Source: Gemmatimonadota bacterium
Lineage (GTDB): Bacteria > Gemmatimonadota > Gemmatimonadetes > Longimicrobiales > Gaopeijiaceae
Direction: 5' to 3'
NCBI GenBank assembly: GCA_003559555.1
Contig: PWLA01000050.1
Coordinates: 1 to 38,967, forward strand
DNA: 38,967 nucleotides
Shown here: positions 3,539 to 38,967 of the stretch, piece after piece
Layout: each line of letters starts with the position of its first letter
Position numbering within the stretch: the first letter of the stretch is position 1
The notes under the pieces: model-generated
The model's database searches: none
What the model was told of the DNA's origin: nothing
Seen by the model: only the letters and a program-made list of their open reading frames with translations
Made by a program: the position numbers and the translations under genes

Positions 3539-4465
3539 TCAGTCGTTCTCCGGAGGCCGGCGCACGGCCAGCACAGGCAGGTCGGCCCCCCGAACCAGCT
3601 TGTCCGCCACGCTTCCCAGGACGAACCGGCTCACCCCTCCCCTGCCCCGAGTGCTGAGGGCCAGGAGCTCCGGCTCCTCCTCCTCGATCAACTCCAGGAG
3701 CGCCTTGGCGACATCGTCGGCACCGATCACCCGGGTGTCGATGTCGACGCCCAGGGGATCCCAGGACTCGGCCACTCCCTTCAGATACTCCTCGCTTCGC
3801 CGCTCCCTCTCTTCCATCATGTTGGTCTCTTCGACCGCGTGCGGCAGGTACGTCGTAGCCAGGGGGAAGGGCCGCAGGAGCACAGAGACCAGGGTGACCC
3901 GCCCCCCCTTCGAGGGCAGAAGCGATGTCAGGGGCGAAAGGATCTGCTCACTTGCCCGGGAGCCGTCCAGGGGGACGATCACCCGGGAAGGCGAGGTGTC
4001 ATCTGCGAAGAGATCCCGGCTCCGATCTCCACCCCGAAGGAGGAGAACCGGGCGCTCGGCTCTTCGCACCAGGCCATCGGCCACGCTTCCGAGCCAGGCT
4101 CGCTGCCACGCGCCCCGGCCATGGGTGGTGAGGGCCACCAGGTCGGCCCCGGCTTCGCCGGCTTCCCCCAGGAGAGTGCTTACCACCGGCCCCATCTCCA
4201 CTCTGGTTTCCACCTCCAACTCGGGGTGGTCTCCCCGGATCTGTTCCCTGATCCGGTCCAGGTAGGTGTTGGCCCGCTCCTTCTCCTCGTCGAACCAGCT
4301 CGCCACCAGATCACCGTCGCCGGCCGCCAGGGGAACCGGCGGGAGGTCCGAGACCACCGAGGCCAACACCACACCGGCGTCGTGTCGGGCAGCCAGTCGG
4401 ATGGTGGGGTCGAGCGCCGCCTCAGCCAGTTCGGAGCCATCGAGGGGAATCAGGATCTTGTTCAT
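3539..4465 (-). CDS. Tandem-domain universal stress protein (UspA family)
   Basis: This 308-residue cytoplasmic protein has two Usp domains. Each starts with the typical beta strand (KILIPLDGS at residue 2; RVIVPLDGS near the middle). Each carries the nucleotide-binding loop G-x9-G-S in a T/S-x-x-G context: THGRGAWQRAWLGS in the first, TRGRGGVSRFVLGS in the second. These loops suggest the ATP-binding subclass. Such proteins act in stress survival and dormancy, often under redox or starvation control. I chose the ATG at 4465 because GGAGG precedes it by 9 nt and the domain begins at once; an upstream in-frame ATG would add 23 residues without homology. A dyad motif at 4643-4661 upstream may be its operator. 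Confidence 0.92.
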   Translation of the reverse strand: MNKILIPLDGSELAEAALDPTIRLAARHDAGVVLASVVSDLPPVPLAAGDGDLVASWFDEEKERANTYLDRIREQIRGDHPELEVETRVEMGPVVSTLLGEAGEAGADLVALTTHGRGAWQRAWLGSVADGLVRRAERPVLLLRGGDRSRDLFADDTSPSRVIVPLDGSRASEQILSPLTSLLPSKGGRVTLVSVLLRPFPLATTYLPHAVEETNMMEERERRSEEYLKGVAESWDPLGVDIDTRVIGADDVAKALLELIEEEEPELLALSTRGRGGVSRFVLGSVADKLVRGADLPVLAVRRPPEND

Positions 4466-4790
4466 CGAAGCAGTCCTCCCAGGGACGAAGTATGGATTCA
4501 TGGGACAGGCGCGACCGGGGCATAATCTCCCCAACGGTCGCCACTCATCGGATGCACCTGTCGTGCCAGTAGGTGAACCGCCGCATAACGGGTTCGGTCA
4601 GGAACCACCCGGGGGCTGAAGCGGGCCAGGGCACCCCGGACTGGGACATTATGTCACATCCGGGAGCATGGCGCTCGTGTCGCCCCACGACTCGGACACC
4701 CTCCTGGTCCAGCCCGGAATTGGACGATTCAGGAACCTCACCCGCACTCGTGCGTTACATGGGTAGGAGTTCCGTCCGCACTCATCCGAG
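4466..4790. other. Divergent intergenic region, 325 bp
   Basis: This spacer separates the stress-protein gene (minus) from the secreted protein gene (plus). It holds the dyad motif at 4643-4661 and the -10-like CATAAT near 4521 on the plus strand. No convincing gene or RNA was seen. It must contain promoters for both flanking genes, but a well-spaced -35/-10 pair could not be assigned with confidence. Confidence 0.5.
4643..4661. promoter_or_regulatory. Candidate operator, copy B (GACATTATGTC palindrome)
   Basis: GGGACATTATGTCACATCC contains the perfect 11-bp palindrome GACATTATGTC (4645-4655). It is 16/19 identical to the copy at 28-46. It lies 178 bp upstream of the stress-protein start and about 130 bp upstream of the divergent secreted-protein gene, so it could control either. 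Its AT-rich core stands out from the surrounding GC-rich sequence. Confidence 0.4.
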
Positions 4791-35291: not shown

Positions 35292-36164
35292 TCACATCTC
35301 CAGGTCGTCCGACTCCAGCTCCACCGGTGGGTGCGGGGTCTCGGGATCGCGCCAGGGCGGCGGCGCATCGTAGTCGTACTGGCCCACGATCCAGACCGGC
35401 GTGCCCTCCTCAAGCACCTCCCAGCCCCGCTCGTCCAGGGTCCAGCCTTCGCCCCACTCGTAGATCCACCGGGCATCCCGTTCCAGGAGGCGAACGCAGG
35501 CGTGGCTCGCCGGCTCTCCGGGTAACGCATACTGGTGGAAGGAGAGCCCTCTCTCGTTGTGGAAGTTGAAGTACCACTCCAGGTACCACTCGGGGTTCAC
35601 CGTGCTGTGCCGGCCTTCTGATCGCCAGGTGAGAAAGTAGCGGCCCGAGGGTGTGGGGTGTTCGCGCCGACCCGTGCTCACCGGACCCCAGCGGACCAGC
35701 CGCCCGTCCTGGTACGCGCCGAACACCTGAGTGGGTTGGTGCACCACCAACGCCCGGGGCAGGGTGTCCACTGGAGCCAGCTCCCGGGGCAGCGGGCTGT
35801 ACTCCAGGGGATCCTCGTCCCAGCGGTCGGGAATCACGATGGAGTCCGCTCGGGCCAGGTACTCCTGGTCCATCCGGTTCACCTTCTCCAGGAGCCCCAG
35901 CTGCTCGGCATCGAACTCGGCAGTCAGATCTTCCGGTGCCGGAGCCAAGTGGAAGGCGATGGGCTCTCCCGGGGCCGGGGTCTGCGGCACAGCCTCCCCC
36001 GCCGAGCGAGCCAGGACTCCCCTGTCGACTCCAACAGGCTCCGGTGCGGCGACCACCGAAGCCGGGCCCACCTTCGCCAGGAGGGGGGCAGCCAGGGCTA
36101 CCGCCAGGATCACGGCCAGAGTCTCGGTCACAGTGGCGGCCGGGCTCGCAGAAAGGATCTTCAT
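35292..36164 (-). CDS. L,D-transpeptidase (YkuD family)
   Basis: The enzyme makes 3-3 cross-links in peptidoglycan or attaches proteins to it. The 290-residue precursor has an N-terminal hydrophobic segment (about 12-32) that acts as signal or anchor. A Pro/Ala-rich stalk to about residue 75 and a helical segment rich in Glu (about 78-105) follow. The YkuD domain (about 136-275) holds TGRREHPTPSGRYFLTW, His210 and the nucleophile motif SHACVR with Cys223 and Arg225. The usual motif is SHGCVR; here Gly is replaced by Ala. The tail is acidic and Pro-rich. The AT-rich inverted repeat at 36221-36270 lies 57-106 bp upstream of the ATG and may control it. It converges with ppdK 24 bp away. Confidence 0.92.
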   Translation of the reverse strand: MKILSASPAATVTETLAVILAVALAAPLLAKVGPASVVAAPEPVGVDRGVLARSAGEAVPQTPAPGEPIAFHLAPAPEDLTAEFDAEQLGLLEKVNRMDQEYLARADSIVIPDRWDEDPLEYSPLPRELAPVDTLPRALVVHQPTQVFGAYQDGRLVRWGPVSTGRREHPTPSGRYFLTWRSEGRHSTVNPEWYLEWYFNFHNERGLSFHQYALPGEPASHACVRLLERDARWIYEWGEGWTLDERGWEVLEEGTPVWIVGQYDYDAPPPWRDPETPHPPVELESDDLEM

Positions 36165-36220
36165 CTTCAGTCTTCGTCCCGTGACGATGTCGTCTCACTC
36201 GAAGGGCAAAGGCTCTCTTT

Positions 36221-36270
36221 ATGCACTATTTTGGTGCATACCTATTGGCCAATGCACCAAAATAGTGCAT
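36221..36270. repeat. Perfect 19-bp inverted repeat; two NtrC-like palindromes
   Basis: The arms are ATGCACTATTTTGGTGCAT (36221-36239) and its exact reverse complement (36252-36270), with a 12-nt spacer. Each arm is itself a dyad, ATGCAC-N7-GTGCAT. Each contains GCAC-N5-TGGTGC, the classical NtrC (NRI) binding pattern, the second arm on the minus strand. Centres are 31 bp apart, about three helical turns, like the paired strong sites of the E. coli glnA enhancer. The palindrome ATTGGCCAAT (36244-36253) straddles the spacer. At 7 G/C in 19 bp the arms contrast with the GC-rich surroundings. The element lies between the CPBP gene end and the transpeptidase start. A terminator role is less likely because no T-run follows. 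Confidence 0.7.
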
Positions 36271-36308
36271 CGCGCTGTTCAAGCATCGCGCCACCTCGGG
36301 TCCGATCC

Positions 36309-38967
36309 TCAGGCGCCGGGCTCCGGCCCGCCGTCCGGTCCGGTGCCACCGCCACCACGCAGAACGAGTCCCCAACCGGTGGCCACAGCCAGCACCATCA
36401 CCGAGGTGATGAGGCCGGCCGTCAGCGCTCCCGGATAGGCACTCCCCAGCCCGTCCCGGAGTGACGGAAGGACGGCAGGAACCGCCACCATCACCGGGAT
36501 CACCGCCACGTGAAGGGCCCGGGTGATGGGTACGAGGAGGGCGAAACCGCCGGCTCCAGCCGCCGCACCCAGGAGCCAGGGCACCACCCCGAGCCCGGAC
36601 AACCCCCCGGCCAGCGCGAGCCCGCCCGCGACTGCTACCCCGACACCCCGCAGGCGCTCCGATCGCCATCCCCGGGTCAACCGGCCCAGAATCAGGATCA
36701 CCAGGAGGACTAGGAGGGCCTGAAAGACCAGTCCGGACACGGCTTCCGGCGACGTCCCCATCCACGGCCACCGGAACGACGCCGGCGACGCCCCGAACCA
36801 GAGGGGATCCTGCCGGGGAAACAGCACGGAGCCCAGCGCCGAAGCGCCCGCCAGCGCCAGCCCCAGGAGCCCGCCCCACCCCAGCACGCTCGGCCATCCC
36901 ATGGAGGTACCGGAGCGAGCCTGCCTCCACCCTCCATGTATCACGCCGGCCACCAGACCCGCGGCCAGCGCCATCACCGGGAGTCCCATGGCCATGACCC
37001 CCAGCTCCACGAAGACCTGATCTCGATACGGTTGGGCCGTCCCGAAGCCGCCTACCGTGACGGGCCAGCGAAGCCACTCGGAGAAGGCCGAGGCCCCCAG
37101 AACCAGGGCCCCGAGACCCCAGAACGCCCCGGTGGCGAAACCGCCCCGCCCCCGGGCCCACCGGATCAGCCCCACCACCGCCGCCCCTCCCAGGAGCGTC
37201 ACCAGCATGAGCACCGAAACCATTCCAAGGAGGTTGGACCGGGTCATCCTTTCCCGCTCGTCACGCTGCCACTCCTCCGGGACGTGGACGAAGCGGACCC
37301 CGTCGGAGGGCCGGTCACCAACCAGACCCACCTCCACCCGAGCCTCGCCCTCCTCCATGGGATGGATACCCGGGCGGGAGAAGGTGAAGGTCCAGTCCAC
37401 CCGGGCCGGCTTCCGAGAGGCTTCGGCCGAGACGTCCTCCAGGGCCGCCGGATCCAGGCCCAGCACGGTCTCCACCTCCTCCATGACGCGGGTGCGGGCC
37501 GCCTCCTCCTCCAGCTCGGCGCCCGGCCGATCCTCCGGCACGATGTGCTGGCGCCGGAAGACCTGGCCGCCGGGCCCGATCCACACCCGGAACTCCTCGG
37601 CCCGCTCCTCCACCGTTCCGGTGAAGCGGACGAAGCGCACGTTCCACGAGGGTCCCCTGAGGTGCCCCTCCTCCAGGAGCACCTGGTGGGCTTCCGGTCC
37701 GCCCTCCCGCCACACGAAGCGGTGGGCACCGCCGGGTCCGCCCTGGATCCGCGGCAGGGGCCGCCAGGTGTCCTCCAGGACGACCCCCTCGTCGGCCAGG
37801 CGCTCCCGAGCGGTCTCCACCGCCTCCTCCCGGTCCACCGCCAGGGTGGGCACGTCCGGCTGGAAGGGCGTGAGGGCAAGCCAGAGCACCGCCCCCAATC
37901 CGCCGGCCACGCCCACCCCCATGCGAATCCGGCGACGAGCCGCCGGGGAGAGTGGCTCCTGGAGCGCGAACTCGGCGTCCCGGTCTGATCCGTCCGGCGG
38001 GGCGCCTTCCCTGCCCCGGGGCCCCTCGTCCCCGGTTTCTGCCAGCCCCCCGGTCCCCTCCGACGGCTGCCCGACGTCCTCCTCCGGATCCCCACCCACG
38101 CCGGCGGCGGTCGTATCCGTGTCCCGGTGGGGGGGGACCTCATCCGTCATGTCGGCCCGGCGGGGCTTCCCCAACCCGGCCCCCTGGTTCAGACCTGCAG
38201 GCGACACCTCGTCGGCCAACCCGTGTTGCCGGATCCGGTAGAGGATCACCGCCAGAGGGAGGAGTGCCGCCGCCACCAGGAGTCCCCGATCCAGCCAGAG
38301 CCCGGCGGGCGCAGCGAAGATGGGCAGGGAGAACCAGGTCAGGTTGTACAGGGCGTGGGCCAGGATCACCGGCAACAACCCGAAACGAAGGTAGACCAAC
38401 CCCCACAGGGTGGCGGGCACCACCAGCTCCAGGACCCGGGCGTAGGCGGGCTGCTGCGGGTAGTCGGCGTGGGCTGCGGCAAAGACCAGGGCCTGCAGGA
38501 CCAGGGCGAAGGCCACCAGGATTCCCTTCCAGCCGAAACGGCGCCCGATGAGGATGGCCACCGCCAGGGGGACCGCACGGAAGAGGGCCTCCTCCCAGAA
38601 CCCCGCCATGAGCGAGCCGGATATGGCGGTGAGCGAGGGCAGGTAGGTGGCCACCAGGTCGGGCTGCACCAGCGCCTCCGACGGCACCCACCACCCCTCC
38701 CGCCGCATGGCGAAGAGGTAGAAGGCCACCACGAACCCCACCTCCAGGGCAGCCAGCAGGTATCCGCCCAGGGTTCGGCCCAGCACCGCGCGGGTATTGG
38801 CCACCCCGGGCGACCACAGGTTCCAGAGCCGCGGTTCGGCCGGCATGGCCCGGCGCGTGAGCCCCTCGGCAGCCGCAAAGATGATGGCCAGCATCAGCCC
38901 CCCGCCCAGGAAGACCCCCAGGGCGGTCACCCACTGCTGGGTCAGAAAGAGCCCTCCGGAAACGGCG
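36309..38967 (-). CDS. CPBP-family intramembrane protease fused to a second membrane block (partial)
   Basis: The frame is open through the right end of the window, so the N-terminus is missing; an in-frame GTG at 38930 is internal or a possible start. The first block of membrane helices holds the CPBP (Rce1-like) motifs: FWEEALFRAVPL (Glu-Glu-x3-Arg), AAAHADYPQ and AHALYNLTW. These glutamate and histidine residues form the likely metal or catalytic site. A charged Gly/Asp-rich linker follows. A helix then leads to a periplasmic-type domain of about 200 residues that starts VPTLAVDREEAVETARERL, perhaps PepSY-like. A second block of about eight helices ends in a Gly-rich tail. Total length exceeds 870 residues, about three times a single CPBP domain. 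The partner function is unknown. Confidence 0.78.
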   Translation of the reverse strand, partial: AVSGGLFLTQQWVTALGVFLGGGLMLAIIFAAAEGLTRRAMPAEPRLWNLWSPGVANTRAVLGRTLGGYLLAALEVGFVVAFYLFAMRREGWWVPSEALVQPDLVATYLPSLTAISGSLMAGFWEEALFRAVPLAVAILIGRRFGWKGILVAFALVLQALVFAAAHADYPQQPAYARVLELVVPATLWGLVYLRFGLLPVILAHALYNLTWFSLPIFAAPAGLWLDRGLLVAAALLPLAVILYRIRQHGLADEVSPAGLNQGAGLGKPRRADMTDEVPPHRDTDTTAAGVGGDPEEDVGQPSEGTGGLAETGDEGPRGREGAPPDGSDRDAEFALQEPLSPAARRRIRMGVGVAGGLGAVLWLALTPFQPDVPTLAVDREEAVETARERLADEGVVLEDTWRPLPRIQGGPGGAHRFVWREGGPEAHQVLLEEGHLRGPSWNVRFVRFTGTVEERAEEFRVWIGPGGQVFRRQHIVPEDRPGAELEEEAARTRVMEEVETVLGLDPAALEDVSAEASRKPARVDWTFTFSRPGIHPMEEGEARVEVGLVGDRPSDGVRFVHVPEEWQRDERERMTRSNLLGMVSVLMLVTLLGGAAVVGLIRWARGRGGFATGAFWGLGALVLGASAFSEWLRWPVTVGGFGTAQPYRDQVFVELGVMAMGLPVMALAAGLVAGVIHGGWRQARSGTSMGWPSVLGWGGLLGLALAGASALGSVLFPRQDPLWFGASPASFRWPWMGTSPEAVSGLVFQALLVLLVILILGRLTRGWRSERLRGVGVAVAGGLALAGGLSGLGVVPWLLGAAAGAGGFALLVPITRALHVAVIPVMVAVPAVLPSLRDGLGSAYPGALTAGLITSVMVLAVATGWGLVLRGGGGTGPDGGPEPGA

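Follow-up and report, generated by a model that had tools for sequence, protein, structure and literature searches.

A paired NtrC-box site before an L,D-transpeptidase gene of a Gemmatimonadota bacterium as the predicted operator of an NtrC-like sigma-54 activator

The window, a stretch of 38,967 nucleotides from a Gemmatimonadota bacterium, contains an inverted repeat of 50 bases (36221-36270) between two genes that are both read from the minus strand. The features around it are as follows.

35292-36164, minus strand: YkuD L,D-transpeptidase (LDT) gene (PF03734, E 8.6e-20), N terminus signal-peptide-like
36165-36220, minus strand: gap of 56 nt between the operator and the LDT start, with no sigma-54, consensus sigma-70 or terminator-like site
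36221-36239, no strand: dyad 1, ATGCACTATTTTGGTGCAT, with the 17-bp box TGCACTATTTTGGTGCA at 36222-36238
36240-36251, no strand: spacer of 12 nt that separates the arms; its sequence is unrelated to the spacers in the genome's other three pairs
36252-36270, no strand: dyad 2, ATGCACCAAAATAGTGCAT, the exact reverse complement of dyad 1, with the 17-bp box at 36253-36269
36278-36293, minus strand: weak sigma-54-like site TGGCGCGATGCTTGAA, upstream of the operator (8.5 bits, ad hoc matrix)
36309-38930, minus strand: gene of a CPBP (Rce1-like) membrane protein (PF02517), whose stop codon precedes the operator by 38 bp

LDT is the only gene with a start just downstream of the repeat. The 19-nt arms are 100% complementary, and each is a 6-7-6 dyad that holds a 17-bp NtrC box of the form TGCAC-N7-GTGCA and, on one strand, GCAC-N5-TGGTGC. 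The dyads lie 31 bp apart from start to start, which puts them in helical phase (expected about 31-32 bp). Thus both the dyad and the phasing are those of an NtrC-type paired enhancer. The GC content of the operator region is 44-46%, against roughly 70% in the neighbourhood. Base composition by itself predicts 6e-5 perfect 19-bp inverted repeats with a loop of 3-50 nt for the window; the element is a real feature and not a product of chance. The initial annotation had described a repeat with two dyads 31 bp apart in a GC-rich region, with the site pattern and spacing of an NtrC enhancer. Arms, box and spacing were all found as it gave them, and the box form and the pairing agree with published NtrC sites. 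The 17-bp box of E. coli NtrC is (T)GCA(CC)AnnnT(GG)TGC(A) (PMC8743547), and that of Salmonella NtrC is TGCACC(A/T)4TGGTGCA (PMC4987338).

Is there a sigma-54 promoter next to the pair? Sigma-54 sites were scored with a matrix built by hand from the published consensus, against the background of the window. A scan of 36165-36220 gave no sigma-54 promoter (-24 GG, -12 GC) between the pair and LDT, just as had been annotated before, and neither a consensus sigma-70 promoter nor an intrinsic terminator was found in these 56 nt. Because there is no sigma-54 promoter at LDT, the element is classed here as a paired operator of a bacterial enhancer-binding protein (bEBP) and not as a demonstrated enhancer. 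The site at 36278-36293 does not have the GC of the -12 element and was judged insignificant. Elsewhere in the window, the best sigma-54-like site is TGGCACGACAGGTGCA at 4553-4568 on the minus strand (15.9 bits on the hand-built matrix). It is located about 90 bp upstream of gene 3539-4465, whose start, MNKILIPLDGSELAEAAL, resembles a universal stress protein, and no NtrC-box dyad was found near it.

How rare is such a pair? The pattern GCAC-N7-GTGC-N16-GCAC-N7-GTGC was searched. It has four exact matches in the 3.5 Mb assembly of the genome itself, which is about 90% complete, and allowing one mismatch adds no further match there. In one sample of 298 Gemmatimonadota genomes that includes this one, none of the 297 others has a match, and a reversed control pattern gave two matches in all across the same sample. 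Among 146 relatives sampled earlier, the sole other carrier was a genome of the same genus (G003), where the pair stands at the orthologue of the regulator described below. When two mismatches are allowed, one genome (G031) stands out with 24 matches. A DNA search with the intergenic region of the window across 57 relatives returned only the region itself. The four exact pairs lie before LDT in the window, upstream of the gene of a sigma-54 activator, upstream of a DUF4382 lipoprotein gene, and between two divergent genes on contig C28. The activator and lipoprotein genes belong to one cluster on contig C11, which also has a triple site before a TPR gene. All four pairs have a gene start downstream. 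Their spacers and flanks share no sequence, and because the spacers are unrelated the four pairs are not copies of one repeat. The three pairs outside the window are less self-complementary than the one in it; the dyad is kept, the long stem is not. The C28 pair (L059 13260-13644) lies between a Ser/Thr kinase-TPR gene and one for a small secreted protein that has an LTGEQ motif; on neither side did the scan give a convincing sigma-54 promoter.

The genome encodes rpoN and ten full-length sigma-54 activators, among them the following one.

L058 4969-6324 (C11), minus strand: sigma-54 activator of 451 aa (PF00158, lid domain, Fis-type HTH PF02954)

The C11 regulator has an AAA+ domain with GAFTGA, which is invariant in the alignment, and a Fis HTH, and is a bEBP by these features. 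Its recognition helix, HRNTLTRR, is NtrC-like; that of NtrC itself is RNTLTRK. The N-terminal part aligns with the receiver of NtrC1, with Ser52 at the position of the phospho-acceptor Asp and Glu at that of the conserved Lys, and the aligned orthologues have Ser or Arg at the phospho-acceptor position. The best match in the PDB is NtrC1 (4l4u, residues 25-447). The NtrC structure 1ntc matches the regulator only weakly (E 0.09), and a short query for aligning the helix to 1ntc gave no match. The pair upstream of the regulator gene lies 38 bp before its start, and, as at LDT, no sigma-54 promoter was found there. The cluster consists of the activator, the TPR protein and two lipoproteins; no histidine kinase was seen in it. 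Two of the predicted targets in it do have sigma-54 promoters, TGGCACGGCTCATGCA between the pair and the DUF4382 gene, and TGGCATGCCCTGTGCA before the TPR gene.

Is this arrangement conserved? In G003 the regulator orthologue has 80% identity, and a pair at 31 bp upstream of it and a triple downstream are found in the same places with changed bases. The order regulator-TPR-lipoprotein(-DUF4382) recurs, in related genera too: it was found in G003, G027, G001, G019, G031 (twice) and the Longimicrobiales MAG L095, and each of these cassettes has one or two dyads in front of the regulator gene. The cassettes are at L058 1779-6324 and at L217, L219, L220, L221, L211, L215 and L095. Their lipoprotein has the motif GCGNLTAGG, and the DUF4382 lipoprotein is present in several of them. 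Strong sigma-54 promoters precede the TPR gene in the genome of the window, G003, G027 and both copies of G031, and the DUF4382 gene in the first three. Among 41 activators scanned, all eight with the helix HRNT[LM][TA] have an upstream dyad within 300 bp, while one of the 21 with non-HRNT helices does; the Fisher p of 2e-6 is only indicative, because the sequences are related and the mismatch threshold was set after the data had been viewed, and the groups were made by hand. In G001 (L220 6977-7081) there is a diverged pair of dyads, TACACATAATTTGTGCA and TGCAAGTTTTATGTGCA, 31 bp apart, and a strong sigma-54 promoter, TGGCACCGCGCTTGCA, faces the divergent gene; the diverged pair suggests operator drift among paralogues. 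At LDT the picture is different. G003 retains the order PPDK-LDT-CPBP, with an intergenic region of about 72 bp, compared with 144 bp in the window, and no dyads were found at this syntenic LDT although G003 has the regulator. None were found at the LDT relatives in G002, G004, G005, G019 and G020 either. Therefore the LDT pair is lineage-specific.

Taken on this comparative evidence, 36221-36270 is quite probably a bipartite operator of the C11 bEBP. The initial annotation had named, as an alternative to nitrogen control, another regulator that has evolved the same operator, and this alternative fits best, with the C11 bEBP linked to the site by the recurring pairs. Dimers of the regulator would occupy each dyad, and the phasing of 31 bp, about three turns, would place them on one face of the DNA, where they may join into a higher oligomer. 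Within the C11 cluster the regulator would most likely activate the sigma-54 promoters by looping, like NtrC. What then might it do at its own gene and at LDT, where 38-56 bp separate the pair from the start codon downstream? At these two genes it would most likely repress or modulate a promoter that is not of the sigma-54 type. NtrC itself can act in both ways, as an activator of sigma-54 promoters and as a repressor of sigma-70 promoters: glnAp2 is activated by it, and glnAp1 and probably glnLp are repressed (PMC3870243). The C11 regulator may have the same dual use. Because LDT has no sigma-54 promoter, the likeliest sign there is that the regulator represses or modulates another promoter, and we give this about an even chance. 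The rest of the probability falls to a sigma-54 promoter that was not recognised or to no effect. The same box could also be recognised by other activators that the genome encodes.

One should ask whether the site is nevertheless a classical NtrC enhancer, through which a true NtrC controls LDT or a distant gene by nitrogen, as was first proposed. NtrC enhancers do indeed have this box and this 31-bp pairing (PMC8743547, PMC4987338). Of the two genes whose presence was to be checked in the genome, rpoN was found, while no ntrC above the cut-off appeared among the activators profiled. In this profiling with NCBIfam TIGR01818, which covered nine of the ten activators (L033 was left out), the C11 regulator reached 344.4 bits and the best of the eight others 465.7, all below the NtrC equivalog cut-off of 558.6 bits. 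The regulator linked to the box is also without the phospho-acceptor Asp, no dyads were found at the sole glutamine synthetase locus that was found, and the other paired and triple sites stand at lipoprotein, TPR and Ser/Thr kinase genes, which are not nitrogen genes. In a genome about 90% complete a missing ntrC is possible. Nitrogen-type control is nonetheless hardly credible here. Compared with enterobacterial NtrC (NRI) enhancers, such as sites 1 and 2 of glnAp2 with the 17-bp box TGCACCAnnnTGGTGCA (PMC8743547), the system shares two boxes spaced by about three helical turns, a pair at the regulator's own gene, as in autoregulation, and sigma-54 promoters at some targets. It differs in a regulator that scores below the curated cut-off and has no phospho-acceptor, in targets that are envelope and signalling genes, and in an LDT copy which, unlike the glnAp2 enhancer, has no sigma-54 promoter. 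A further likeness is to bEBPs of the NtrC family in which the receiver is degenerate (FleQ-like logic, NtrC1/NtrC4 architecture), and which share the receiver-like domain, the AAA+ GAFTGA and the Fis HTH; the C11 regulator is set apart from them by Ser52 in place of Asp, by the linked TPR protein and lipoproteins, and by the lack of any histidine kinase seen nearby.

Other explanations do without a regulator, or without its effect on LDT. A mobile or dispersed palindromic repeat (REP/BIME or MITE-like) might happen to carry two dyads; like REP/BIME, the element is an intergenic inverted repeat near a gene end, it follows the stop codon of the CPBP gene, and it is missing from the syntenic site in G003. 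It had been pointed out earlier that many copies at unrelated gene ends would speak for a repeat. The genome of the window has only its four pairs, whereas something of the kind was found in G031, with about 20 pairs of CGWTGCACAAWWWTTGTGCAWCG dyads at 31-bp spacing, mostly just after stop codons and without sigma-54 promoters. However, the four pairs differ from REP/BIME in their unrelated spacers and flanks and in their downstream gene starts, the pair at the regulator is kept at the orthologous position in G003, and sigma-54 promoters adjoin two clusters. A test for such repeats in the genome revealed no near-identical copies with flanks or spacer, and no target-site duplications were seen. 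A repeat element is therefore very unlikely. Could the element act as RNA instead, as a terminator, attenuator or processing hairpin between the CPBP and LDT genes? Its transcript would fold into a 19-bp stem (MFE -58.1 kcal/mol, z -6.4), but this strength follows from the perfect inverted repeat, and the other pairs keep the dyad without the long stem. No U-tract or terminator-like site was found at the element, which led to the rejection of a terminator, and no Rfam family reaches its gathering score; the models that appeared, microRNA models and one cis-regulatory model, were far below that score and were triggered by the hairpin shape. An RNA function is highly improbable. It is also conceivable, though unlikely, that the regulator binds the LDT site without effect on LDT, by chance or as a relic, or that it acts on a distant promoter. 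The pair is lineage-specific and has no sigma-54 promoter nearby, the best such site of the window being 31.7 kb off. On the other hand, both LDT dyads are perfect, which is expected under selection or recent origin, and the same arrangement, again with no sigma-54 promoter, stands at the gene of the regulator, where it is conserved.

If the operator is that of the C11 regulator, what does it mean? By its sequence the site would be annotated as under NtrC control, yet it apparently belongs to a different regulator, so that outside proteobacteria an NtrC box alone is no evidence of nitrogen control. Genome evidence ties it to an uncharacterised NtrC relative, which would control its own small set of cell-envelope genes. 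In passages of Francke et al. 2011 (PMC3162934), a survey of associations, sigma-54 and its activators were predicted to be linked with lipoprotein and peptidoglycan genes; those passages do not describe the C11 cluster or its site. The C11 cluster may represent an undescribed sigma-54 cassette of Gemmatimonadota, with a phosphorylation-independent NtrC-like activator, a TPR partner that is perhaps a sensor or inhibitor, and two lipoproteins. It would use the NtrC box in an envelope-linked response other than that to nitrogen, and would recently have captured a gene for peptidoglycan cross-linking by means of a new paired operator. We regard this scenario as evenly balanced between right and wrong. 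The cassette offers a concrete, testable candidate regulon from a phylum that has had little study, and with it one can ask what switches on an activator that has no phosphorylation site. The paired site at LDT is missing from the closest of the relatives examined and may be a case of recent regulon expansion.

Two further observations concern the relatives. In several genomes an S9 peptidase gene and a TrkA-like gene adjoin the cassette. The pairs of G031 (L198-L216) have the variant dyad TGCACAAWWWTTGTGCA, with a right end that is usually TTGTGAA, and four of them lie between convergent genes. They look like REP-like repeats, or may be a large set of sites for the C79 paralogue of that genome, which has one such variant pair upstream.
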